Source: Ectocarpus siliculosus (lineage: Eukaryota; Sar; Phaeophyceae; Ectocarpales; Ectocarpaceae). From it: a stretch of DNA of 45,400 nucleotides. Positions 16,001 through 45,400 of the stretch are shown one piece after another; the stretch's first letter is position 1; the number at the start of each line of letters is the position of its first letter. The DNA lies in NCBI GenBank assembly GCA_000310025.1, contig FN649745.1, positions 1,624,977 through 1,670,376 on the forward strand. The letters run 5' to 3'. A program made the position numbers and the translations under genes. Below the pieces are notes generated by a model, which saw nothing but the letters and a program-made list of their open reading frames with translations, was not told where the DNA came from and did no database searches.

Positions 16001-17928
16001 AAGTGCAGACAGACTAGACAATACACGAGAAAATACACTGAGAGTGATGTTGTACTCTACAGTACGTACATGCGCTGAGCCACGTGCGTGCACGGTAGAA
16101 CACGTCTCACCACGAAAAGTAGGGGGATTGTCGCTACAATAAATAGAACGAAGGCAAAAAAATAAAAAAAATGCACACACAAAGCGAGACAGCCTCCAGT
16201 TGCGGAAGGAAGAGCCCCTAACGGGTAAAAAGCTACAAGAACGAGCAAGGAAGGTAGAAAAACTTGAGCTTCGTAACAACATACCTCGACTACATGCAGC
16301 AGTAAATAAAGCGTACCGTTAGTACTGTGGGCTACAGTTAGCGAATGCAACCTCGCACGCACAACAAAGGTGCAGAGACTCAAGCAACACCGAAGGTGGA
16401 TGGATTCATGCACAGGTCAAACATTCACAGGAGGCGTCATTTACATCGCTGACGTTGCTTCCCTGGTGGGAAAACATTCCCTGGTGGGAAAACATCGCAT
16501 CATTATTAATGGCGCTTTTTGCTGTTCTCACATCAAATTTCAGCGCCCACCAGCGAGCGACAGCGAGCGGCTGTTTACAGATGCCTACAATCATACTAGA
16601 TCCCTTTCCCGTGAGAAAAGACCGTGTGCACATGGTTCTACTCCGCTGCGGGTAGAGGTTGGATTCAAAATTGTCGGTGTTTGTGATTCGGACCGGTCGG
16701 GGGTAGAGCAATGTGTAGTCGAGGTTTAGTCTACACCAAGCCAAGAAATGGCATGCCAGAAAAATAGTCCGACGCTCATGTATTTTCGTTGCAACTGCTC
16801 GCAAGGGAGACAAATTGCCGGATGGCGAATGGGTTACGGCCAACTGAACACCAGGATGGTGTTATCCCCGCCGCCCCCATAGACAAATATACACGCGACG
16901 AAAACAAACGTGTCTGCAGCATGCACTCCTCTGGTCTGCCTTGGTACGTCATGTTTGTTTCTGCATTTATCCGGGCTTGATTCTCCGGTTTCCAGATACT
17001 GACTTTTGTCGAACACGACATTTCGAACCAGATGTTTCGTCGCCCAACTGCTGTACACATCTGCTTTGTGGGAAGGTTTTGTGTGTCCCACTGATTGATC
17101 AAAGAGATCGTCGTAGCGACGAAGAACTGGGGCATAGTCAGTCGTAGGTACTGTGCGTGTCGACGCGGCGACAGGGAAGGGCATATTGGTGGACTGGGAT
17201 CCATCGTCGACAAATACAGATGGAAGCTGGTTGGGATTTAATGACACGTATCGGTATTTACATAGTACATAGACTGGCTGTGGAAGGCACAAACATCAGG
17301 ACCCACCTGCGAGAACAATACATAGCATAGCAGACGGACGGAAGAGAACCAATGCATGACTCAAAACACTCGAACGTACATGCTTGACATAGTTGGGGAG
17401 TGTGCGGGTAGCGCCCAACACGATAATAATCTGCTCGATTAAGCGCGCAGAACATGTTCTACGTGGATATAGTGTAAGTACCCTCTCGCGCACCACTCGT
17501 GTCTGCTGTAGTTGATACGGCAAGGTATGGTGCGTACGTGTTCTAGACCGTTTGCTGATTGATTTTCTCACCTCTTCGCTGAGGTGGGCATAAACCGTTA
17601 GGGTCTTGGCGAAGCATCGGCCGGCGCTCTCGGCGAGAGCAGTGGCAGCGGCGTCGACGGAGGCCGCGTCCTCTTCCCCTTCGGCGTAGTAAAGAACAAG
17701 ATCGACGTTTTGCTGGGTCACGGATGAGCAGTCAGTAGGCCATCGCCCGAGTGAGGCCACGGCCCTGTCGAGGTCACCCTTGTACGCTGGAACTACAACA
17801 GCGAGACGCTGCTGCTCTGTCTGTGCTCGAAGGTCAGTTGTTGGTGGTGTGGCAGTCGCGGGAGACAGAAGCGCCGTCGCTGTCAGCGTGGCGGCTAATA
17901 GGTAGCCTCGACAATAATAGTAAGGCAT
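4007..17928 (-). CDS. Secreted/Golgi glycosyltransferase-like protein with internal 61-aa repeats (5 exons, one frameshift)
   Basis: Exons (minus): 17928-17572, 7139-6696, 6303-5191, 4974-4572, 4261-4007; all introns are GT-AG with matching phases. About 856 residues result if one extra base is ignored. Residues 1-26 form a signal peptide (YLLAATLTATALLSPATA), so the product enters the secretory pathway. A GT-A-like start follows (LAVVVPAYKGDLDRAVASL), then YPRGPSVMFYKLF, an EWD triad in ALAIIEWDVLVA as possible metal site, and WHVLGHINGNAIY. Exon 3 carries the 61-residue repeats, then a second globular domain (DAYER/AVGGLPGV seam, FFADEYCG, TSKDTHSPQGDLLVVF) ending in PGIWFFNPQEW. Activity and substrate are unknown; wall polysaccharide or glycoprotein synthesis is a guess. 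The frameshift near 5770 means this copy is disrupted, or the assembly has an error. The exon structure is my own splice reading. Confidence 0.75.
5440..6145 (-). repeat. 183-bp (61-aa) in-frame tandem repeat in exon 3
   Basis: The motif ctgtcggcctgcag starts at 5458, 5641, 5825 and 6008, giving spacings of 183, 184 and 183. In protein terms the unit runs from LQADSEDVY(D/T)RRRL through GSAPKVARKLQKWRDANKES to KNKWETTETAK(N/D)ESVPK. It is Lys/Arg/Glu-rich and probably helical. Outer copies are more diverged (the 5' end of the tract reads ENEKWKTFEEPKWETSE). The one 184-base spacing marks a single extra base. Confidence 0.93.
7374..7430 (+). repeat. GTT-run repeat family, copy 1
   Basis: A GTT-rich run followed by cttcacattaaaaaccgttc recurs at 13785-13838 (minus) and, shorter, at 15487-15523 (plus). 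The GTT runs may be a simple-sequence tail of a retroposed element, with the shared block as its 3' end. No open frame is conserved. Confidence 0.6.
8510..8605 (+). repeat. Dispersed repeat family A, copy 2
   Basis: Shares gttttgcatg, cgtgtcctagagaggacga, gccttgttgcaacatgaccg and gatggccaa with the copy at the left edge of the window. It lacks the G-run. Confidence 0.45.
9036..9307. repeat. Foldback (long inverted repeat), arms about 90 bp
   Basis: The left arm 9036-9124 contains tcccacgctgttttttcga, agctgaaattt, catgagtac and gccactgcgccatttg. The right arm 9213-9307 contains their reverse complements (caaatggcgcagtggc, gtactcatg, aaaatttcaggttc, tcgaaaaaaccgcgtggga) in mirrored order, with scattered mismatches. 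The AT-rich centre is about 88 bp. A further inverted match, cttggtcagaccagcttgta at 9331 and its complement near 8664, suggests a longer, partly deleted palindrome. MITE/foldback remnant. Confidence 0.8.
10930..11345 (+). repeat. Short diverged direct repeat pair
   Basis: The block gcatgcggtattccccaacc, continuing into ggccacgtcaacaac near 10940-10975, resembles gcattgcggtatttgccccc, continuing into atcggccgtggcaacacc near 11298-11338. No class can be assigned. Confidence 0.35.
11909..12025 (+). repeat. Dispersed repeat family A, copy 3
   Basis: Begins with a run of ten G and tgtactcatagtcgtgcatg, then accattgacctcgcatcc and gggacggagcacgcc, matching the left-edge copy over its first half. 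The shared G-run edge suggests that the run belongs to the element. Confidence 0.5.
12308..12530 (+). repeat. A-run hairpin followed by a 66-bp tandem pair
   Basis: ggttaccg and cggtaacc flank two A-runs (12 and 15 A), forming a hairpin of about 8 bp with an A-rich loop. Next come two diverged copies of a unit beginning ttttacaaggt at 12394 and 12460 (66-bp spacing), each ending in a G-run, the second with 12 G. No open frame is credible here. Confidence 0.6.
13018..13100 (-). repeat. Dispersed repeat family B, copy 2 (inverted)
   Basis: Reverse complement of the 1700-1785 block, keeping cctagtaca, ggccaa and the cgtcctgg edge. Confidence 0.55.
13785..13838 (-). repeat. GTT-run repeat family, copy 2
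   Basis: Reverse complement reads a GTT-rich run, then gtctccacattaaaaaccgt and tccgacg, matching 7374-7430. Confidence 0.55.
14027..14645 (+). repeat. Tandem pair of ~190-bp repeats, the first interrupted
   Basis: Copy 1 (14027-14420) and copy 2 (14440-14645) share ttccacaacccg/ctccacaacccg, cctacaagactccaatc, gtgcgtgg(g/a)agatgc, gtgacagcacaact and the closing ggcgtct(a/g)gtccatactg and ctgtag. Copy 1 has about 210 extra bases (roughly 14175-14388) between the acgac..c.atgta block and the closing block, absent from copy 2, as if something had inserted there. Confidence 0.7.
15197..15250 (+). repeat. 27-bp tandem repeat, 2 copies
   Basis: cggtcgagtggaag(t/g)tctc then tcggacgc repeats at 15197 and 15224 with one mismatch. 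No coding context. Confidence 0.85.
15487..15523 (+). repeat. GTT-run repeat family, copy 3 (partial)
   Basis: A GTT run of seven or more units, then tttttcttcacattaaa; it matches the first half of the 7374 copy and then diverges. Confidence 0.45.
15630..15860 (+). mobile_element. tRNA-derived SINE-like element
   Basis: The head carries a tRNA-like A-box (ggtggtctagtagtgggg) and, about 70 bases on, a near-perfect B-box inside gtgagttcgaatccccat, so it looks like an internal pol III promoter. A tRNA cloverleaf cannot be completed (the T-stem pairs poorly), arguing for a tRNA-derived retroposon rather than a functional tRNA. A non-tRNA body with A-rich patches follows (gaaaaaataaaac, gataaaaaataaaattc), ending near 15860. 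The right boundary is approximate and no target duplication was identified. Confidence 0.5.
16461..16496 (+). repeat. 18-bp tandem repeat, 2 copies
   Basis: ccctggtgggaaaacatt is repeated at 16461 and 16479 with one terminal difference. Confidence 0.85.
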
Positions 17929-20269
17929 CTTCGAGGTTCCGCGCCTGTGGCGGCCTTCTGAGGCCGCTGGCGCTTCTCGAATGGCTTCTGGGGCTAGGGT
18001 GGTGGGTGGGTGTGCGGGGCGGTAAGAAAGCACAGGGCTGGAAGCACAATTTGGATCTGGAAAAAAAGTGATTCTCAATGTCTGCAGCCCATATAAATAA
18101 CGTATAAATAGTAAAGATGAGACCACCGTTTTTTCGGGATAAATACCCTCCCCTGTGCAACATCGGCAGGTTAGGTGTGTATCAGCTGAAGATATATTCG
18201 CGCTGCTGCCGTTTCGCATGTACTGCTGTACCGCATACGTCCGCGACGAGGTGGGACTGATACGATCAGGAGCTTGTTGTTGAGCATGGTTACAGCTCTC
18301 GAAGCTGGCTGGCGCATTGGCACATACATCCTTTGCGGGTCTGCATGTAGTAGCAGAGATCGCAATCCACAACATTCACTCAGCACTCACTCACAGCAAA
18401 ATAGAAATCCCGCAGGTAGTTACTGTGTGAGTAGCACTACTGCAGCCCGAATCACTATAGTTATTTGCTTAACCTACACACAATCACATCCAAAGATTCT
18501 TTTTAGGGCGGACTTCCTACGGAGTATCTTCCATTTTTGATCGTTGGCCAGGGGGAACCAAAGATGTATCCTTTGTTAGAAAGGCTTACCCATTAGGCTA
18601 CTCAGGGTTAGGTATAGACTACGCTGCATGATTTTCTCTTTTCAATAGTAGTTCTACATGTGATAGAGCCTATGTACCTCGCGAATTGCCTTGGTCCTCC
18701 ATCATGAATAACAGATCCCCTCCTCTGTATTCTAAGTAGGTGCAGAACAGGGTTACACGTTCACATAACGCGTCAAAACTCTCTAACCTGTTCCGTCCCA
18801 TCCAAATGCACCATCTCCAAACACTGCTGCGTCTTGTGGATGGAGCACGATACCCAAGGTACAGCAATTGCATGTATGTATGTGTGTATGCCGTATCTAA
18901 CGATCACGAGGAACACAGAAAGGTTAAGGTTTTACATCATGATACCACACAAATCATGAATCCTCGCGACTCTATCCTAGACTTTCAGTCTACAGACTAC
19001 AGATCCGACGCGGTGCGCCCGAAAATCTGCCATAGATGGCCGACGCCAGATGTATGCGTTCTTATAGAACAAAGAACTCATGATGGGATGAATAAGCACT
19101 CAATGTTGGGTCTGCTCCACTGCTCGCTCCAGTATGACGTCAAAAGCTACCGTAAGAGGCAGAGAGATGGCACCCTCCCTAGACCGACTTTCAAACCTCG
19201 ATTGTTGCACAACCAAGTGAGTGGGAAGAGAGCCCGATACAGAGGGGGTCCCTGTTTAGTGCCGGCATATGCGCAGAAAATTCACCGGAACCACGCATGG
19301 TACGCATACACCGGACCCACTCTATTCAAAGTACTGACAATATAACTTGGATTTTCAGTGCGTGCTCGTCGAAAACACCGGCACTACATATGATATCGCT
19401 TTGTTTGGCACTATTCAACCGGCACCAAACAGGGACCCCCTCTGTACGTCAACGGAGAGTCGCCGACGAGATGCTTCCGAAACCACCGTTATTGGTGGTG
19501 TAAGCTTGAGTTGTGAAGAAGTTGTATTGATCGGTCTACATGCATATTGTAAATAGGGGGGTGCCATCTCCTCCACCTCTCTCTTGCGGTATCTTGGCCG
19601 TATGTACATATATATAGAGCAGTACGCATATATATGAGATTGCCAGGTGTGGTCAGGCGCGTGGGATGCGCCGAATTTTAACAGGAGTGTATACCCCGCG
19701 AACAATGTCAACCGGAGGTAGATAGTTATGCATCACACATGGACTCTCCGGGCGCAACAGGAACCAGCAGGCATGGTGGGGGCGGAAGAAATCTCTCTGA
19801 TGAATTTGTCGTTCGTGCGGAAACAAAACATGCATGTGTTCCAATAAACTGCTCGGTGTGTCGTTGTGGACACGTTTTGGGGTCGCGCTGGGTTGTTTCA
19901 TCCCTCGGTTCTTTCGGGAGCAGGCAGAGCGAGCCACACACCGAGCGTGCGTAGGTGGCCCCGTAACCGCTTGTGGCACTCAACAACAACGTCAAACCGG
20001 TTTGGGGGGATTGCAGCTGGCTGTGGTTGCCTGTTTGTGGTGTGGGTGACCCGGTTAGACAAACTCTCCGCTTTTTATATTTGCAGGAAGTTTCGACAAA
20101 AAACTTGAAGTATTTTCTTCTTTTTTTCAAGTTTTTTTGGAGCGTGCGGGGTATGTACACAGAAGGAGTTGCAACCATTTTTCTCCACACTCACGATACC
20201 TCAAGGCATCTACCCTGGTACCAGAAAGATGCTGGGTTGGAGCTACATTGCTGATGTTGCCTCCTCTCA

Positions 20270-34883: not shown

Positions 34884-35346
34884 AGGGTTAGGTTAGGCAT
34901 TCTGTTGTCATCAGTAGAGGACACCATGAAGAGGCGTTGTGCATGCTGGCACATTAAGGTTTGCTACTGGAGCGGAAATATCGAAGGTCGCAGCAGGCTC
35001 TGAAAACAGTCCAAAATCTGCGCTGGAACCAAGCGGCATCCAACATTTGTCACAGCCATGCTCGCCGCCACGGACCGTAAACCCCTGAACGGAGGGGTGT
35101 CAGCGGTAGCTGTGGCATCAGCTACTGCTGTAAACTTGTAGTTCAGGAGATTGGGGTCGGTGGCGGCGAGCATGGCTATGACAAATGTTGGATGCCGCTT
35201 GGTTCCGGCGCAGATTTCTGACTGTTTTCAAAGCTGTTGCGACCTTCGATACTTCCGCTCCAGTAGCAAAACTGAACATGCCAGCACGCACGACGCCTCT
35301 TCATGATGTCCTCTACTGATGACAATAGAATGCCTAACCTAACCCT
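34884..35346. mobile_element. 463-bp foldback/MITE-like element with ~190-bp inverted arms
   Basis: The left arm 34884-35076 begins agggttaggttaggca; the right arm 35155-35346 ends with its complement tgcctaacctaaccct. The arms mirror each other over almost their whole length: gaggacaccatgaagaggcg against cgcctcttcatgatgtcctc, tggaaccaagcggcatccaa against ttggatgccgcttggttccg, catgctcgccgcca against tggcggcgagcatg. Only scattered mismatches are seen. The loop is about 78 bp. No transposase is encoded, so mobilisation would need one in trans. No clear target-site duplication is visible. High arm similarity suggests recent activity. Confidence 0.9.
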
Positions 35347-36943: not shown

Positions 36944-39900
36944 TCACCGGGCAGTGGCTGAAGGCGGTGCTGTTGTTGCTGAAGCGGGCGCCGTTGTGGC
37001 CGAAGTTGGAGCTGTTGTGGCTCCTCTGGATTCGTCGACGTTCCTTCGGATGCCACGCACGAAGGAGCTGTTGCGATGTACTTGCAGACACCAGGAACCG
37101 CAGACGGCGTGATGTTCGGAGCTGTAGTGGCCGGGGGCGAGGGAGATCTTGATCGGCCCGGGGTCGTCCAGGAAGCGGACGATGTAGAGGTCAGCAGTGG
37201 TGGTGTGCCGCGATATTTTGCCCAACCACCAGAGCGCGTCTTTGGCTTTGTACCAGAAGTAAGCTCCTACGGGTATGGCGGTGGCGCTGAAGCGGCGAAT
37301 GTAGGTGTCGCGGGGGACATAGGTGTAGCCGGGTGAAGACGCACGTTCTCCTTTGGAGCGGGAGAGTTCTCGAGCAGCGGCTCCTATGCGCATGTTGCGG
37401 TACAGACGGTTTTGTTGGCCGTGCTGATCCGGTGTGCCACACCAGTAGCGAAGGATGTGGTGACGCGAGTGTTGTAGGTCGATTTCTCGTTCCCAGGAGG
37501 GTCGAAGCAGGCCTGTCCAGTGTGTTTGGTAGAGAGCAGCGAGTACTCCGCCGCGTCCGCGGACAGTTTGGTGTCCTGTGATTTTCTCTACTTCAAGGCG
37601 TTGAAGGGGCGTGGAGACGTCATCCGCGGTGACGTGGTACGGAGGTGATTTGTTGGTGTAGTTGTTGAGGACGTATCTTGTAAGGCCAGCAGGCAGGAAG
37701 CGGGGTATGTCAGTGTCGTGGGCGTGGTGGCACGGCTTGCAGCGTACTACGGAGACGCGGTTTTTGGCGTCGGCGCCGGGCATGTCGTTGGGCAGGTCCA
37801 AGTAGAGGAGTTTGTCGGCGATCGGACGCCCATCTGGTGCTTTGTCGCTAGGGCCTACGGCAAGAATTTTGAAGGGCCCAGTCCAGTTTAAGGAGAGCTT
37901 GGCTTTGAGAACCTGCGAGTCCGAGGCGGAGGCAGAGGCGTTGGTGGAAGCTCCTTGGCGAATTGTCGATACCTGATTGTAGACCCAGACCCAGTGTCCT
38001 GTCTTGTAGACGGGTCGTCGGTGAAGTGCATCCGATAGTGACGAATTCCTGCGCTCGATTTTGTCGACGTTGAGCGCGTGTTGCTCTCGAACGAGGTCGT
38101 AAGCGGGCCGTTGTCTGTCCACATCGAGGTTGTGGTATTCAAGTTGATCCTTAGCCAGGCTTTGGTGTCCGCGAGCGTAGATGTTGTCGAAAACGGTCAT
38201 GGGGAAGCGGGCGAGTCGGCCGATGTGAACTTGGTTGGGTGCTAGCCCTGTGGCGGCGCTCACGGTGTTGTTGTAGGCAAATTCCACATGCGGGAGGTGT
38301 AGATCCCAGTCATCTTGCCTCTCATTGACGGATACAGCTAGCGTTTGAGCCATTATGTGGTTGACGCGTTCCACGCCGCCGTTGCCGCAAGGGTGATAGG
38401 CGCTGGTGGTGATTTTGCGTACGCGGAGAAGTTTGAAGATGGCGTCAGAAAGCTGCGAGGTGAAGTGGAGACCATTGTCGGAAAGAAGGCTCACTGGACA
38501 TCCCCAGAGTGGAATGTATTGATTGACGAAGATATTGGCGGTCCCTTCGGCCGTGTATTTCGCAGGGGAGACTGCGTACATGTCGGCGCGCCTGCTAAAG
38601 CGGTCGGTGAAGAGTAAGATGTAGGCGTTGCCGTGTGGAGTAGTAGGGAGCGGTCCAAAGTAGTCCACGCTGACGGCCACACCTGGCCCTGATGGCAGGG
38701 GAATGGTGAGGATGGGCCATCGTATAGTTTGTCGTGCTGATTTGCGGCCTTGGCATGTGTAGCATTGTCGAGTCCAGAAGCGGGCGCAAGAGCTCATGCC
38801 AACCCACCAGTAGAGTTGTTCCAGAAGGCTGATGGTTTTGGCGGTGCCAAGGTGGCACAGAGTGTTGGAGTGGCATTGAAGCATTACCCAAGGACGCATG
38901 TGTACTGGCACATAGATGCGCGTGGGTTCATTGTCGAGAAGGCGAGCAGCTCTACCGCTAGGACGATCGTTGTCGGAGTTTGGCGGTTTGGTAAATTGTC
39001 GAACCAAGAGCGGATTGCCGTCGTCATCGGTGATGATGCGACCTTTGATGGCCAATTCCTTGATGTTGGTGAGGGAAGGACGCACGTGTTCTGGGGTGTC
39101 GCCGTAAAAGTCTGTGGGCAATGCCAAAGGTTGCCCAAGTTGAATGCAGTGAATGGCGGAGTTGCAAGTGACGTCCTTTTGTTGTTCCTCATGCCAGTCG
39201 GCGTGTGTGAAGCGCGCTATAGAGTCCATGAAGGATATCTCAGCCGGAGAAGGTAGTGGCGCTGGAAGTGACGAAGAAGCTGAAGTGGAGGGGGTCCCTG
39301 TGGATGGTGTGTCTGCAGCTTCCGGCAGAGGTTCTGCGGTTGGTACGGTGGGCACGAGTTCAGCGGTGGTTTGCGCAGGTGGCGTAGAAGGGTTTGTGTG
39401 CGGCCTGCGTGGCGGTGCAGCAGGTGCTGGTGCCGCAGTGGCGGAAATGTCTGGGCTGAAGCGGTAAGTTACTTGAGGCAGAGGATTCCCCGATGTTGCA
39501 GCTGCGCGGCGTCGAGTGCGGGTGGATATCAAATCTGATGGATCCAAAGAACGCGGGCGCAACCGAGAAGGAGAGAGAGGCCGCTGAAGTGCAGGTGCTT
39601 CCAGGATGTCTGACCTGGAGAGAGCTGCAGTTGCAGGGGGCATTGTTGAACTGGCAGGTTGTGCCGGAGATTGAGCGGCAGACTGTAGTGTGCCGGGATG
39701 GTGTTGAAGATTTGAGGACGGGGGACGTACTGTGGTAGGGTCCTTGCTATGATGGTCCAAATGTCGAGGCAAAGCCGATTGATGCACTGTGTTGATGTCG
39801 CACAACGCAGGAGAGTCGCGAGAGCGGAGACGTGAATTGTTGTTGGAGACTGACAGAAAAGCACGAGCTGCGAATACTCCGGGAGGAGCGTCGAGGTCGT

Positions 39901-41314
39901 CAATGCTCATTCGGAGCCCGTGCCGGCGAAAATCCTGGAAATCCGCTGGTGTCAGTGGGGAGCCACTCAAAGTGTCGGTGCCGTTGTTGGGTACTAGCCC
40001 ACCCAAAGCAATACCCTGTGGAGAAGGACCAGAAGGAGTGTTGCCGGTGGCGCGAATCATGTAGACACCCACATCATCTGGCATGGTGATGCGGCTATCT
40101 CCTGTGATGTCCTGCGGAGTGGCGGGTATGGGTAGTCTAGACAGCATGTCGGCGTTGCTGTTGGAGGAGCCCGGGCGGTGTTTGAGCGTGTATTGATACG
40201 CTGTGAGGAACTCAAGCCAACGCTGCACGCGTGGGCTGTGGTCTCCCACCTTGGAGATGTTCTCCAGTGCCTGATTGTCGGTCCAAATTTGGAAGTGTGT
40301 GCCGCGCAAGTATCCACGCAAGCGTTTGATGGCCCAAACGATGGCGCCACCTTCCAAGTCGAGTGGTGTCCAGTTGCGCTCAGCGTCAAGTGTCGATCTG
40401 CTGATGAAGACGATGGGGCGAACAGAGCCATCCGCTTGTTCTTGTTCTAGTGTCGCGCCCAGACCATCGAGGCTTGCGTCGCAGTGAAGGCGGAGAGGTC
40501 TGGTACCGTCTTCGATGGCCTTCCAGTCGGGGAAGACAAGAATTGGCGGTTCGGAGAGTTCTTTAAGGATTTCTCGGACGATGTCTTCCATGTCGGCGGT
40601 GAAGGTGAAGGAAGAGTTTTTCTTGAGAAGCGTCGTGACGGGGCGTACTCGTTTAGACAGGTTTTTGACGAAGCTGCGGTAGTAGCTCAGACCACCGAGA
40701 AGGGAGCGAAGTTTCTTGAGGTCGGTTGGCATTGGCATAGCTGCGAGTGCAGCGACTTTGTTGGCGTTGGGCCTAATGCCGTCGGGGGTAATGGTGTGTC
40801 CCAAGAATGCAGAGTGTGTCGTGCCGATGGTTGCCTTGGGCGGTGAAAGCTTAAGCTTGTGCTTACGCAGCCGTTGCAAGAAGGCGCGCATGGTGCGGAT
40901 GTGATCCGCCGGTGTTTTGTCGTAGAGCACCACATCGTCAAGGTACGCGTCGACGCCTTCGAGGTTTTTTATGACCTCATTGATGACCTTCATCCACCAG
41001 CCTGAAGATTGGCTGGCACCCATCGGCATTTTGAGCCACTCGAAAAGGCGAGTCGGTGTGGCGAACGCAGTAAGCGGAATTGTGTCTGGGTGCACGGGAA
41101 TTTGGTGGAAGGAGCCTGTGAAGTCGAAAAGCGAGAAGATGGAGCCCTGGTTCAGTTTGTTCATGATCTCATCCACACGAGGAACAGGTAGTTGGCTGAA
41201 GCTGCTGATGCGGTTGAGTTTCTGGTAATTGACGGTGATGCGAAGCCCACCAGATTTCTTGGGAATGACGACGATGGGGCTGCAGTACGGAGAAGTGGAG
41301 TGTTGGATTAAACC
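36944..41314 (-). CDS. pol: Reverse transcriptase - RNase H - integrase - chromodomain-like - Tudor-like (Pol)
   Basis: Copies element RNA to DNA and integrates it. The frame starts after the shift near 41315 (SPYCSPIVVIPKKSGGLRIT). Numbering from ATG 41176: RT with FDFTGSFHQI (Asp18) and YLDD at 78-81; RNase H 229-347 with D233, E275, D300 and D343; Pro/Ser/Ala-rich spacer about 350-645; zinc HHCC with H769, H775, C805 and C808; integrase core D838, D900, E936 (exact 35-residue spacing between the last two). C-terminal: a chromodomain-like segment about 1195-1245 (YQTHWTGLLRPSWEREIDL), a Tudor/agenet-like segment about 1300-1365 (VGAYFWYKAKDALWWLGKI, DLYIVRFLDD), and a tail of three ATTAPxSA repeats. 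All catalytic residues are intact. ATG 41176 is internal and not the true start. Confidence 0.93.
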   Translation of the reverse strand, partial: GLIQHSTSPYCSPIVVIPKKSGGLRITVNYQKLNRISSFSQLPVPRVDEIMNKLNQGSIFSLFDFTGSFHQIPVHPDTIPLTAFATPTRLFEWLKMPMGASQSSGWWMKVINEVIKNLEGVDAYLDDVVLYDKTPADHIRTMRAFLQRLRKHKLKLSPPKATIGTTHSAFLGHTITPDGIRPNANKVAALAAMPMPTDLKKLRSLLGGLSYYRSFVKNLSKRVRPVTTLLKKNSSFTFTADMEDIVREILKELSEPPILVFPDWKAIEDGTRPLRLHCDASLDGLGATLEQEQADGSVRPIVFISRSTLDAERNWTPLDLEGGAIVWAIKRLRGYLRGTHFQIWTDNQALENISKVGDHSPRVQRWLEFLTAYQYTLKHRPGSSNSNADMLSRLPIPATPQDITGDSRITMPDDVGVYMIRATGNTPSGPSPQGIALGGLVPNNGTDTLSGSPLTPADFQDFRRHGLRMSIDDLDAPPGVFAARAFLSVSNNNSRLRSRDSPALCDINTVHQSALPRHLDHHSKDPTTVRPPSSNLQHHPGTLQSAAQSPAQPASSTMPPATAALSRSDILEAPALQRPLSPSRLRPRSLDPSDLISTRTRRRAAATSGNPLPQVTYRFSPDISATAAPAPAAPPRRPHTNPSTPPAQTTAELVPTVPTAEPLPEAADTPSTGTPSTSASSSLPAPLPSPAEISFMDSIARFTHADWHEEQQKDVTCNSAIHCIQLGQPLALPTDFYGDTPEHVRPSLTNIKELAIKGRIITDDDGNPLLVRQFTKPPNSDNDRPSGRAARLLDNEPTRIYVPVHMRPWVMLQCHSNTLCHLGTAKTISLLEQLYWWVGMSSCARFWTRQCYTCQGRKSARQTIRWPILTIPLPSGPGVAVSVDYFGPLPTTPHGNAYILLFTDRFSRRADMYAVSPAKYTAEGTANIFVNQYIPLWGCPVSLLSDNGLHFTSQLSDAIFKLLRVRKITTSAYHPCGNGGVERVNHIMAQTLAVSVNERQDDWDLHLPHVEFAYNNTVSAATGLAPNQVHIGRLARFPMTVFDNIYARGHQSLAKDQLEYHNLDVDRQRPAYDLVREQHALNVDKIERRNSSLSDALHRRPVYKTGHWVWVYNQVSTIRQGASTNASASASDSQVLKAKLSLNWTGPFKILAVGPSDKAPDGRPIADKLLYLDLPNDMPGADAKNRVSVVRCKPCHHAHDTDIPRFLPAGLTRYVLNNYTNKSPPYHVTADDVSTPLQRLEVEKITGHQTVRGRGGVLAALYQTHWTGLLRPSWEREIDLQHSRHHILRYWCGTPDQHGQQNRLYRNMRIGAAARELSRSKGERASSPGYTYVPRDTYIRRFSATAIPVGAYFWYKAKDALWWLGKISRHTTTADLYIVRFLDDPGPIKISLAPGHYSSEHHAVCGSWCLQVHRNSSFVRGIRRNVDESRGATTAPTSATTAPASATTAPPSATAR

Positions 41315-41315
41315 T

Positions 41316-42878
41316 GGCCGCGAGGTATTTATCCAAAATGGCGTCCACTTGTTTGGCGACCAGAGGGTTCATGCGGTAAGGCTTGGTTCGCACCGGTGGG
41401 GAGCCGTCCGGAATGTCGATTTTGAACGGCAGCAGCGGGCAGCAGCCCAGGTCCGTTGGTGAAGTGGAGAAGACGTCCCGGAAGTTGTGTAAGACATCAG
41501 CGAGTTCATCTATGACGGCAGGCGTCCAGCCTTCGCCGTGTAGATTGAACGTAATGGCTCGCATGTGCGGTGGTAGGCGGTCCCAAAGAGATAGGAAGCT
41601 TTTCTGTTGAGCGGCATCTAAGCGGTCCAGAAGCTCCTGTGGTGGAAGTGTCGGTGGAGACGGATTGTTGTGAGGGGGAGGGGAGTGCTGTGCAGGTCCC
41701 CCGATATTGCCGGTAGATACGTTGCCGATGAAGGGATCATCACAGTGTGCCGCATCGGCAAAGTGTGTTGGCCCTGGCACTTGGAAGTGATTTGACTGTT
41801 GCCTGTCGCTAAATTGTTGGATAGTGTCGATAGATACACGCATGAGAGGGGCGGCTGCTGTACCTAATATGTCGCCCGGCTCAAGCTCTGCGCATCCTGC
41901 GAGAGATAGAAATTGGCGGCCGTGAGACACGAAGAGTTCGTCTGAAGGGGACAAATCTGCAATAGTGTCGACTATGTAGTGGCCTTCCAGAGCAGGATAT
42001 CCATTGGCGCGGACGAGGTTGACTTCGACCAATTGGTGATTTGACGAGAGAGAGATTCCAGATTTTCCAGCGTATTTGAGGTGGAATCTTCCTGGAGCTG
42101 CAGAGGGATCTGGAATGTAGGCTGATGCGCCGCAGGCTTGGTGGTGAGAGAAAGCATATTCTCCCAGCACGCGTTGTGTTGGAGAAGGCGTAGGTAGCAC
42201 GGTGTAGGTGCGGTTGGTATAGCGCATGAAGCTGTCGCGTCCTAGTAGAAGTGGCTGTCGCATGGTGTTGGCTGGAACTACGTGAGCCCAGACGGCGAGT
42301 GAAGCAGTGGGTTGGTCCTTGTGATAAAATTGAACACTGAGACGTACCATCTGATTAGTGACGAGTGGTCGAGCGCTACCGAATCCTCCCCAAGAGCGAG
42401 TGTTGTTAGTGGCGATGCAGTCTTGTGTCGCGCATCCTGTGGCTCGCATGGTGCCGAGAGCATTGCTGTTGATGAACGTGGCTGGAGAGCCGGAGTCCAG
42501 GAGAGCGCCGCAGCGGTAACCTGAAGTTGCGGAACCTGAGTGTATGCGCACTTTGGTGGATTGTGAAGCGTCGTCAACGGTGACAATACCGTCAACGAGA
42601 CTTGGTCCATTTTCAGCAAGTACTTTGGGGTGATTGTCGACGTGGAAACTGGCGGCCGCAATGTGGAGAATGTCGTCGTCGTAGTCGGGAGGCGCATCAG
42701 AGGGCCACAGAGCGTTGATACCCGTTGGCTCTGGGGGTGACTGTGAAGTTGGATTGATCGCTTGCTGATTGTCGGTGTTGATCTCGTGAATGCCGTTATT
42801 GTCGAGTGCGGAGTCGGTGGGGTCTTCCAGTGGCGGCATCGGTAGTGGTGCAGAGGAGCGAAGCAAGTCTCTAACCGA
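41316..42878 (-). CDS. pol: Retroelement protease region (Pol N-terminus)
   Basis: Continues the NADAR frame directly after the TAA; the first residues SVRDLLRSS look like the end of the NADAR C-terminal helix. A retropepsin-like aspartic protease follows with catalytic D-S-G in YRCGALLDSGSPATFINSNA (about 120 residues in) and a hydrophobic strand plus flap region (PLVTNQMVRLSVQFYH, MRQPLLLGRDSFMRYT). It processes the polyprotein. The C-terminal part (VIDELADVLHNFRDVFSTSP, DGSPPVRTKPYRMNPL) is the usual lead-in to Ty3/gypsy RT. The frame is lost at one extra base near 41315; the original open frame runs on to 41169 without RT homology. Confidence 0.85.
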
Positions 42879-44378
42879 TTAAAGTGCCTTACCAAGTAAA
42901 TTTTTGCCTGTCCAGTTGGAGGGGTTGGCTGCCTCGGGGTGATCGGCTCTCATGCCGATGCCCCATGTATTGTCGAAAGGGCTGGCTTCGGCTAGAATGC
43001 TGCTGCCTGTATTGAGAAGATATTGACGCATGGCAGGATTTTGGGAGAATTTCTCGAAAGTGCCCACAAGCACGATATAATCTCTCACCTTTTCCCATTC
43101 CTGTTGCGTGAAGCCACGCACTTGTCGTCCGTAGCGCTTGTGCATTGTTGGGTCTGAAGAAAGCATGATGTTGTGAAGCATGCTTTTGTCGCCGAAGTGC
43201 CGTGCCTTGAATGCCGCGAAGAATTGTTCGGCACAGGAGTATTCCACTCCATCGACCGAAAATGTCGAAGGTGTCCATTGAGAAAAAATGGAGGGCGGTT
43301 GCCAGAAAAGAATGACGTTATTATTGACGTACTCTTGTGTGGCATCAAAGGCAGTGTCGTGAGGCTGTCGGTGTTTCCGAGAGCTCTGAGGAAAGTGCCT
43401 GTATTGTCGTTGCTCAGTTGATGGCGCTGTTATAGTCGCTGAATCAAGTGGCGGACAGTCGGAGGTCCGCTGGCTCCGAGTGTCGTCATCGCTTGGAGTA
43501 GACGTTCCTGGTAGTAGTCGATTCAGTCGAGTAGAAGCAGGTGGCTCTGGTCTAGTCCACCCTGACGGGGGGCGCGAGCTTCCCATTCTTTTAGCGGGGT
43601 TCTGTCCAAAGCGTCCTTCGGAGAGTGTGGGGTCAGCACCTTCGCGGGTACGGGTAGAACTCTGGGTTAATACAGTAGAACTAGCGGTAGCGGCGGCGTA
43701 ATTTTCTGGAGGTCGCTGTACATCTTGTGAAGAGCTTGGTCCATGCACCGGTTCGAAAATTGTCGAAAGTGTTGCACTGCCAGTGTCTGCCGGTGGGCCC
43801 GCTGCAGGAGCCACCTGCTGAGGTCCTAGGACATTACTGGTATGTGGAGCATTGCCGGTGTCGCATGATGATGCCGAATGAGGTTCTGGCGATCGTGCAG
43901 TGTACCCACGCCTCAAAGCCATCGTCTCTCCAGGGGGGCGAATCCTTGGAGTGGCGGTTGACTGAGCTGGCGGGAGAGAACTGTAATCATACGTGGCGGT
44001 AGTGCGAGGCGGAGCTGACCTCGTAGTGCCGCTGTTGCGAGAGCCGGTGGAGATACCGGTTGTCGAAGACGGTGAGGGTATTGTCGGAGCAGAGGCGTGA
44101 TTGGCGTGTGCTGCGCGAAGTGCAGGTGTGCCTGTGGCAGACGGTTGCAGTTCCCCCTGTTTAGTGTCGGCAGTACTAGGCTGTGCATTGCTAGCAGTGC
44201 GAGGATGGCGAGGGCCGGTTGTAGTGTCGGTTGTCGGCATGCGTTGTTTTATTGACGTGTCCGAAGTCGAATTGTCGTGTGTTGCGCGAAGTGCGTGTGT
44301 GCCGGAGGCAGAAGTGTGCAGTTCTCCCTGTGGTGCTGTCGGCGGCACGGGGACGGAGGGCGTACCGCCGCTGCGGAG
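42879..44378 (-). CDS. Ser/Thr/Pro-rich region plus NADAR domain of the retroelement polyprotein
   Basis: This is in frame with Gag after one TGA, up to TAA at 42881-42879. No ATG is evident at the front (first candidate GTG 44348), so expression as part of a Gag fusion is plausible. The first ~340 codons are low-complexity and include a 57-residue duplication (QGELHTSASGTHALRA / QGELQPSATGTPALRA). Codons for 43331-42882 form a NADAR domain: VILFWQPPSIFSQWTPSTF, the Y-x3-E-x-F motif in EYSCAEQFFAAFKA, VGTFEKFSQNPAMRQYLL, ASPFDNTWGIGM, NWTGKNLLGKAL. All family-defining positions I know are present (Glu, the D-x2-WG-x-G loop, the N-x-LG end). NADAR enzymes cleave N-glycosidic bonds of riboflavin intermediates or remove ADP-ribose from guanine. 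Domain recognition is strong; the role here is inference. Confidence 0.85.
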   Translation of the reverse strand, partial: LRSGGTPSVPVPPTAPQGELHTSASGTHALRATHDNSTSDTSIKQRMPTTDTTTGPRHPRTASNAQPSTADTKQGELQPSATGTPALRAAHANHASAPTIPSPSSTTGISTGSRNSGTTRSAPPRTTATYDYSSLPPAQSTATPRIRPPGETMALRRGYTARSPEPHSASSCDTGNAPHTSNVLGPQQVAPAAGPPADTGSATLSTIFEPVHGPSSSQDVQRPPENYAAATASSTVLTQSSTRTREGADPTLSEGRFGQNPAKRMGSSRPPSGWTRPEPPASTRLNRLLPGTSTPSDDDTRSQRTSDCPPLDSATITAPSTEQRQYRHFPQSSRKHRQPHDTAFDATQEYVNNNVILFWQPPSIFSQWTPSTFSVDGVEYSCAEQFFAAFKARHFGDKSMLHNIMLSSDPTMHKRYGRQVRGFTQQEWEKVRDYIVLVGTFEKFSQNPAMRQYLLNTGSSILAEASPFDNTWGIGMRADHPEAANPSNWTGKNLLGKAL

Positions 44379-45400
44379 TCATCCGCGTCCGTTTCTGGTG
44401 CCGGTGGCGTTGGACGACTGATTGCCGTGAAGGCGTGCATCTTGAGAATTGACGGTATTGATGGATTGTGCCGAGGCAGCAGATTGGGCCGGTTGATAAA
44501 CGGTGAGAGAGCCCTGTTGTTGGCCGTTGTAGGCATTGGCGTTGTTGTTGCCGCTGGAGTGGGTGTGGTTACCATTGCCGTGGTTGTTGTAGCTGTTGTA
44601 GCCGCGATTGCTGTTGCGCCGGTTGTTGGTGCGACGGTTCGAGTTTTGGCGGTTGGACTGCTGCCTGTTGGGGCCACGGGTCGTTCTATGGCATCGTAAC
44701 CGCTGAAGCCAGGTTTGGAATGTGTCGTCATTGTCGTTGAGGTGGCGGAGATCTTCGTTGAGAATGCCAGAACGGTTGGTGAAAGGCTGATCACAGTTGC
44801 GCATGGAGTGTGCCGTCGAATGGCAGTTGAGGCAAAGTCGTTGATTGTCGCGGAAGGCTTGTTCTCGTTCGTGTCGTGATACTAGTGGCGTCCAAAGTGA
44901 TGGCAGTTTTCTGGATGTGAAACTCTCAGAAACCTGGAAGACCGTGTACCAGTGGTCATCGCTAGCTAAAGGCCACGCATTGTAGTGTTGATCAAAAACA
45001 TCCGAGTGCGAGTTGGATCGAACGTTCATGACTATTGGGTTGCGTGATGAGCCTGAGGCATGCGATTGTTGTGACGAGGATGAGCGGTTGCTCGACCTGT
45101 GCCCTTGTGATGGAGTAGAAAGTGAAAGATTCCCAAAGGCAGCAGACACAGCACCATGGCCTGGGCCGTTGACAGCTGCAGTCTTGTTTGACGAAAAATT
45201 GTCGAATGCCACCCACATATCGTCTAGTGTCGCATATGGCGAAACAGCATTTGCTAAGCTACCCGGGAAGCAGCTAGTCATCATGCTCGGAAATTGATCG
45301 TTGATCTTATTCCGCGTGACTTCTATGACCCAGCGTGCATCCGGTGCCAACAAACTGGAGTAGTTGGTGACGTTGGATACAGCTACTCGGTACTGCTGCA
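44379..45400 (-). CDS. gag: Gag (nucleocapsid part), 5'-truncated by window edge
   Basis: The structural protein of the retroelement particle. The frame is open to the window edge, so the N-terminus lies outside; counted from 45353, a TTG inside the frame and not a start I endorse, the CCHC knuckle is C174-x2-C177-x4-H182-x4-C187 in CLNCHSTAHSMRNC. It should bind the element RNA. Upstream are a Ser/Gln/His-rich stretch and a Trp-containing region (DDHWYTVFQVSESF). Downstream is an Asn/Arg-rich tail (NNRRNSNRGYNSYNNHGNGN) typical of RNA-binding. It ends at TGA (44381-44379), directly followed by CTC, and the same frame stays open into the NADAR region. Confidence 0.85.
   Translation of the reverse strand, partial: QQYRVAVSNVTNYSSLLAPDARWVIEVTRNKINDQFPSMMTSCFPGSLANAVSPYATLDDMWVAFDNFSSNKTAAVNGPGHGAVSAAFGNLSLSTPSQGHRSSNRSSSSQQSHASGSSRNPIVMNVRSNSHSDVFDQHYNAWPLASDDHWYTVFQVSESFTSRKLPSLWTPLVSRHEREQAFRDNQRLCLNCHSTAHSMRNCDQPFTNRSGILNEDLRHLNDNDDTFQTWLQRLRCHRTTRGPNRQQSNRQNSNRRTNNRRNSNRGYNSYNNHGNGNHTHSSGNNNANAYNGQQQGSLTVYQPAQSAASAQSINTVNSQDARLHGNQSSNATGTRNGRG

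Follow-up and report, generated by a model that had tools for sequence, protein, structure and literature searches.

A NADAR domain is a regular module of one Ty3/gypsy lineage in Ectocarpus siliculosus

A YbiA-type NADAR domain is a regular module of one Ty3/gypsy retroelement lineage in the genome of the brown alga Ectocarpus siliculosus. We analyzed a stretch of 45,400 nucleotides (the window; positions 1624977-1670376 of contig FN649745.1, assembly GCA_000310025.1, 189.5 Mb in 492 contigs), at the right end of which a Ty3/gypsy element lies on the minus strand with a Gag part, a NADAR frame and a protease (PR)-like region, followed by reverse transcriptase (RT), RNase H (RH) and integrase (IN). 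A profile search of the genome scored 150 NADAR matches out of 230 candidates. Among the 42 copies read with their flanks (the window copy included), pieces of the window element used as queries found PR in 42/42, RT in 41/42 and Gag in 36/42, the Gag match of copy L018 being merely 21 residues long. The pairing of NADAR with Gypsy is itself already known, since a 2025 study (PMC12477816) describes a Gypsy lineage of Ectocarpus whose Pol has an N-terminal NADAR. A preliminary description of the window, made from the sequence alone, knew of no described retroelement with this module; that claim falls, as the same study describes it for Ectocarpus Gypsy and for Tx1 long interspersed nuclear elements (LINEs) of oyster. 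No other report of NADAR or YbiA in retroelements was apparent from titles in the open-licence literature.

The NADAR module, its active site and its copies

The minus-strand frame 44378-42879 encodes 499 amino acids, and its residues 358-499 match Pfam NADAR (149.5 bits, cut-off 35.1, E = 1.3e-43) with the motifs EYSCAEQFF, DNTWGIG and GKNLLGKAL all present. The profile comparison proposed in the preliminary description thus bore out its claim of a NADAR domain within a Ty3/gypsy polyprotein. Among solved NADAR structures the domain matched 8bau (4.7e-11), the oomycete NADAR of PMC11543638, and 2b3w (1.8e-7), which is E. coli YbiA. The domain had also been called complete and in the same frame as Gag and protease: the frame is shared, but an in-frame TGA (44381-44379) separates Gag from the NADAR frame, and a TAA (42881-42879) ends the frame of the window copy in the last NADAR helix.

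Active-site residues, with roles as given in PMC11543638, were compared over 67 of the 150 scored NADARs. The catalytic residues were retained almost throughout (E43 in 67, K50 in 66, E125 in 66, W133 in 67), as were those that bind ADP-ribose (K75 in 64, R79 in 65, W89 in 65, R93 in 64, D130 in 66). Losses of K75, R79, W89 and R93 were confined to the decayed copies L051, L052 and L053 plus one stop (L231); K50 was lost singly in L239, and E125 was replaced by a stop in L233. The Y84 position is F in 65/67 domains, and the D86 position is not conserved (47 domains). The position of E125 is occupied by Asp in BC4488 and by His in phage NADARs (PMC11543638); the glutamate of the YbiA subfamily stands there in 66/67 element domains, with the stop in the remaining one. 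Loss of active-site residues across copies, which the preliminary description had raised, was therefore not seen. In L051 and L052 two indels enclose the centre of NADAR and shift its frame, leaving an open frame and a scrambled domain.

A one-off capture, also raised there, is ruled out by the 150 scored matches and by the PR piece in every copy read; together with the kept active site, these findings likewise reject a degenerate module. RNase H hits were used for the reverse comparison: among the 150 listed of 411 candidates, 74 had a listed NADAR at most 6 kb upstream on the same strand (at a distance of 2.3-2.5 kb in 67 of them) and 76 had none. None of the top 33 listed hits by score had a listed NADAR nearby. 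Eight RNase H hits without a listed NADAR were chosen for reading; two showed a frame-shifted NADAR at the expected place, whereas the 800-900 bases read from each of the other six contained none. L220 and L222, two more copies with a frame shift, lay outside the hit list. These counts suggest that other Gypsy lineages in this genome are without NADAR; they fall short of proof, because 150 of 411 RNase H and 150 of 230 NADAR candidates were listed and 2/8 of those checked had a remnant.

The 42 copies were sorted by hand into five subfamilies, A to E, with the window copy in A. Over the best segment, identity to the window was 96-97% in A, 63-65% in B, 59-61% in C, 57% in D and 53-55% in E for NADAR, and 96%, 70-75%, 65-68%, 60-61% and 56-64%, respectively, for RT; the frame-shifted NADARs of L051 (47%) and L052 (43%) were set aside, as was an RT match of 48 residues in L019. 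NADAR and RT identities thus fall in parallel, which fits the expectation of joint inheritance. The exception was L018 (C10:3693021-3698270), which combines an A-type NADAR (96%) with a divergent RT (70%): its linker and NADAR are 89-96% identical to those of the window, its protease and RT 62-70%, and it has no alignable TGA junction. It is perhaps a recombinant element. Outside this assembly, 15 long database proteins have a related NADAR; 8 of these are named Ectocarpus sp. CCAP 1310/34 and carry also RT, RNase H or integrase domains. The top two showed 94% and 91% identity to a genome copy over the part searched.

NADAR is under purifying selection and is far more constrained than the linker that precedes it in the same copies, so that the comparison of substitution rates called for in the preliminary description revealed constraint. 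In three pairs of subfamily C, NADAR had 0, 0 and 2 non-synonymous vs. 8, 5 and 5 synonymous changes, whereas the linker of the same pairs had 12, 20 and 20 vs. 2, 6 and 5. In subfamily D the non-synonymous:synonymous counts were 4:9 for NADAR and 21:10 for the linker; four other D linker pairs had just 1-2 changes, and the one A linker pair had 5:4 (ratio 0.46). NADAR ratios within subfamilies A to E were 0.41, 0.54, 0.07, 0.12 and 0.25; those of A and B are higher, perhaps through changes that arose in dead copies. Between subfamilies, pN/pS was 0.27-0.45 for NADAR and 0.24-0.39 for RT (10 pairs each) and 0.38-0.51 for the PR piece (6 pairs); these ratios are weaker evidence because synonymous sites are near saturation.

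Origin of the domain and a second NADAR family

Relatives for phylogenetic analysis were taken from bacterial genomes (best 80 of 547) and viral contigs (best 80 of 277). The first tree had 120 rows (14 of 47 element NADARs, 36/39 database proteins, 45/80 bacterial and 25/80 viral loci), and in it one clade of 32 rows (SH-aLRT 100) united all 14 element NADARs with 18 database rows. The second tree had 80 rows, including 30 bacterial and 12 viral ones, without long or short rows (P0012, P0015, P0016, P0018, P0020, P0033, P0034, P0039, L150 and L159) and without the near-copies L019, L025, P0010 and P0032. It recovered a 25-row element clade with bootstrap 100 and SH-aLRT 99, held together in 200/200 bootstrap trees, the 25 rows having been labelled after the first tree was seen. 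For the database rows P0001, P0002, P0004 and P0009 we infer membership in elements, because these rows show NADAR alone. The nearest outside rows were NADARs of Nannocystis/Polyangia and of Planctomycetota (99/90 with all of them), the closest being unsure (85/52).

Placement of the element NADARs in one clade beside Planctomycetota/Nannocystis-type bacterial NADARs, the outcome of the phylogeny that the preliminary description had proposed, supports a single acquisition from a bacterial YbiA-type NADAR; a bacterial origin had earlier been suggested from blastp (PMC12477816). A viral or phage origin was rejected, as no viral row stood in the clade or among the 12 nearest outside rows. DarT gave no match in 7/7 bacterial genomes with near relatives (several of them draft metagenome-assembled genomes; introns ignored), which suggests an orphan YbiA as the type of donor.

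A Pol-piece query also found the database protein P0035, whose NADAR then retrieved P0037, P0038 and P0039 (the last NADAR alone). P0035, P0037 and P0038 each combine an N-terminal NADAR with RT and RNase H in a single chain, and all three have [YF]xDD-type motifs. The RNase H of P0035 scored 28.5 bits, above the Pfam cut-off; RNase H of P0037 (20.5) and RVT_1 of P0038 (20.8) were both under theirs. P0035 and P0037 are 45% identical over nearly the whole of P0035, and aligned with the RT-RNase H of the elements the part of this family after NADAR gave an hhalign probability of 90 (E = 1.6e-6, 23% identity). Presumably the three proteins are DIRS-like. The family comes in clusters of 14 and 9 member sequences, which may be repeats or one gene from several samples, and relatives of P0037 in viral contigs were none. 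The NADARs of P0035, P0037 and P0038 formed a separate clade (100/100, 80-row tree). A single shared capture for these and the Gypsy NADARs was rejected, the constrained tree being worse by 20.3 log units (approximately unbiased test, P = 0.032); the rejection is modest, as the group had been named with the first tree already in view. A second capture of NADAR argues for a general benefit.

Other database proteins had different arrangements. P0031 and P0032 join Macro, SseB and NADAR in one chain, that is, two unrelated ADP-ribose-processing domains, and their NADAR stood beside the Lachnospiraceae locus L065 in the first tree. P0034 (592 amino acids, 13 members) has NADAR at its N terminus, and the remainder of the protein matched no Pfam family.

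The Gag-Pol junction and the window copy

The gag stop has the context TGAC at 37/37 alignable sites (5/42 copies were without such a site). The TGA shares the NADAR frame in 26/37 copies, and 20/37 show an uninterrupted frame from there to NADAR, with 2 to 6 fully open copies in every subfamily. The linker between TGA and NADAR, taken from one copy each, has 349, 375, 436, 292 and 283 codons in A to E. In all five subfamilies a predicted stem starts 8 nt past the TGA (9 nt in C). Its basal pairs are C-G, G-C and G-C in A and B, U-A (once U-G), G-C and G-U in D, and U-A, G-C and A-U in E, and the first pair in C is a U-U mismatch; this comparison covers 10 distinct sequences among the 37 junctions, and in the gapless 50-nt junction alignment the 3′ arms of D and E are not lined up, their 3-nt partner offset having been set after the folds were seen. 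Ranked among 1737 background windows of the same copies, the 34-nt fold took rank 0 in A, 7 in B, 37 in C, 132 in D and 378 in E. Known readthrough signals take this form, UGA-C with a 3′ structure close by. These features suggest that Gag and NADAR-Pol may be joined by readthrough of the UGA-C stop codon.

Several observations weigh against readthrough. An indel moves the TGA out of the NADAR frame in 11/37 copies and another stop follows in 6 more, and one variant in subfamily C breaks a stem pair (A-C mismatch). The Fisher joint P of 9e-6 for the 34-nt folds rests on a width chosen after looking, and taken alone the stem-loops of D and E are weak (with a width of 40 nt, E has rank 691 of 1719). 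Folds of 80 nt past the stop were no better than shuffles (z = -1.85 to +1.37, 7 copies). In Tca2 of Candida albicans, the junction around the gag UGA did not direct readthrough in Saccharomyces cerevisiae (PMC2194720). Production of Pol by internal initiation or from a separate transcript, which seems unlikely to us, would agree with the early Met in the linkers of the A, B and E copies examined (within 47, 14 and 37 codons, respectively, after the TGA), and in Tca2 the gag-pol junction contains an internal promoter (PMC2194720). The C and D copies examined, however, have 386 and 220 open codons before the first Met, and the C after TGA in all five subfamilies and the stem-loop with its exchanged pairs also speak against this alternative. 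Readthrough, stop codon and frameshift do not occur in the main text of PMC12477816, and the wider literature was not searched for NADAR with readthrough; the proposed readthrough expression of NADAR-Pol and the second NADAR-RT/RNase H family look new.

Features of the window element are collected in the table. The order PR-RT-RH-IN on one strand is that required of Ty3/gypsy (Metaviridae), with PR known from its motif: the window protease piece matched no Pfam family, and protease was assigned by eye from the retropepsin-like motif. Pfam matches on the window Pol were RVT_1 (3.7e-22), RT_RNaseH (2.4e-29) and Integrase_H2C2 (1.7e-12), while rve (3.7e-6) scored 27.6 bits, under its cut-off of 32.6. 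The window copy is defective, because its last NADAR helix is truncated by the TAA and its Pol frame is broken near 41.3 kb; related copies are open at these places. In the DNA compared, no repeat pair that could represent flanking long terminal repeats was found, and the Gag part runs off the window.

Features of the Ty3/gypsy element in the window (positions of the window)
Feature	Position	Strand	Remark
Gag C-terminal part with CX2CX4HX4C zinc knuckle (CLNCHSTAHSMRNC, by eye)	44382..45400	-	Open frame up to TGA; continues past window end
gag stop TGA, in frame, followed by C	44379..44381	-	TGAC at 37/37 alignable sites (42 copies)
Stem-loop, first nt 8 nt past TGA, proposed readthrough signal	44340..44370	-	Similar placement and exchanged pairs in five subfamilies
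Ser/Pro/Thr-rich linker opening Pol	43308..44378	-	Open in frame in window copy
NADAR domain, C-terminal helix shortened in window copy	42882..43307	-	PF08719, 1.3e-43; catalytic E, K, E, W present
TAA within NADAR C-terminal helix	42879..42881	-	No stop there in the other 46 aligned domains
Protease region (LLDSGSPATF ... LLLGRD, by eye) and spacer	41169..42878	-	Frame break near 41.3 kb
RT, RNase H, integrase (H2C2, core), chromodomain-like tail by eye	36944..41368	-	Pfam; frame differs from that of NADAR

Past the 3′ end of the Pol of the element, a compact hairpin-like repeat (window 34884-35346) consists of two nested inverted repeats, with 113-nt arms 91% and 116-nt arms 84% complementary. 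Elsewhere in the window, a minus-strand open frame of 359 amino acids (17296-18375) was without any Pfam match.

Proposed function and comparison with known systems

Judged by its tested relatives, the NADAR that the element carries with its Pol is most likely a guanine-ADP-ribosyl hydrolase. On DNA, tested NADARs take ADP-ribose off guanine (PMC11543638), and they act on guanine-ADP-ribose of RNA, not on ADP-ribose at phosphate ends (PMC11833690); because the active site is kept, this is the most likely chemistry, and because NADAR is carried in Pol, template RNA or cDNA are likely targets. To a scheme built on this we give an about even chance. NADAR would have been gained once, as the N-terminal domain of Pol, and retained since; Gag would end at a leaky UGA-C with the stem-loop 8-9 nt downstream, and a minority of ribosomes would read through to yield Gag-linker-NADAR-PR-RT-RH-IN. 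NADAR would thereby enter the particle in Pol-like amounts and there, as an N-glycosidase, take ADP-ribose off guanine of element RNA or nascent cDNA, which would keep the template copyable. With its regular position in Pol, its clean active site and its conserved junction, the module lends itself to direct tests of enzyme and expression step alike.

The preliminary description had likewise proposed that the element strips ADP-ribose from its own nucleic acid, and in this part it agrees with the most likely chemistry; the countering of a host ADP-ribosyltransferase that it added is left without a partner. In searches of this genome that ignored introns, DarT (PF14487) gave 0 matches (its control matched in 1/14 genomes) and a Scabin-like transferase 0 matches (no control matched), two results unfavourable to removal of guanine ADP-ribose from element nucleic acid. 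KptA also gave 0 matches (control matched in 3/14), PARP four weak exon-sized matches (no control matched) and Macro one match. An arms race, in which the domain would counter a host defence that ADP-ribosylates guanine of retroelements, has a model in bacterial DarT-NADAR pairs (PMC11543638) and fits the kept active site and the purifying selection; with DarT and Scabin-like transferases unmatched here, and DarT unmatched also in the seven genomes with near relatives, we consider it quite unlikely.

Instead of element nucleic acid, the target could be soluble ADP-ribose compounds or ADP-ribosylated host proteins, with NADAR blunting a host stress or immune response; this seems unlikely to us. 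Viral NADARs have been proposed to target small ADP-ribose compounds or host macromolecules (PMC9503650), which likewise weighs against an action on element nucleic acid, and a stress-induced Ectocarpus NADAR protein increased the salt and heat tolerance of Arabidopsis (PMC7922944). The fixed place in Pol favours a role within the particle, and guanine-linked ADP-ribose is the substrate of those tested in PMC11833690. A structural or nucleic-acid-binding role within Pol, with catalysis dispensable, would find support in the possible DNA-binding groove described for DarT1-linked NADARs (PMC11543638), although that groove depends on an extension absent from YbiA-type NADARs; with catalytic and ADP-ribose-binding residues retained in 64-67/67 domains, such a role appears very unlikely.

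If NADAR does work on element RNA or cDNA, reverse transcription in some eukaryotes would be genuinely hindered by guanine ADP-ribosylation, whose writer would remain to be found. A wider reading, possible but doubtful, is that ADP-ribose removal is a recurrent accessory of retroelements: NADAR would have been captured independently by brown-algal Gypsy Pol, by oyster Tx1 LINEs and by the second RT/RNase H family because, in some eukaryotes, reverse transcription is limited by ADP-ribosylated guanine in template RNA or cDNA, and Esi0017_0056 would be an element product or a domesticated relative. This is the Ectocarpus stress-induced NADAR protein mentioned above (391 amino acids, two predicted introns; PMC7922944), and the text of that paper contains neither "transpos" nor "retro" words; it may be related to these elements. 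The separately captured family of P0035, P0037 and P0038 resembles the element in having NADAR ahead of RT and RNase H in one chain, although its RT-RNase H is merely distantly alike.

We know of no NADAR in Tca2 of C. albicans. A UGA likewise separates its gag from its pol, and a 3′ RNA pseudoknot may be present there (PMC2194720). With DarT-NADAR (DarTG1), orphan YbiA and the P. nicotianae NADAR the element shares the domain family and the catalytic residues; unlike in DarT-NADAR, the domain is part of Pol and no transferase partner was found. Polyproteins of positive-strand RNA viruses also embed NADAR with a replicase, though these viruses are not reverse-transcribing (PMC9503650). ORF1 of the Tx1 LINE of Crassostrea gigas has NADAR within a retroelement protein as well, but the LINE is a non-LTR element, its NADAR lies in ORF1 and is divergent (PMC12477816). 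The NADAR-carrying Gypsy lineage of Ectocarpus sp. 7, of which Gypsy-12_Ec32 is an example, has NADAR in all its families, and its blastp relatives are almost only bacterial (PMC12477816); to that account the present analysis adds tests of the active site and of selection.

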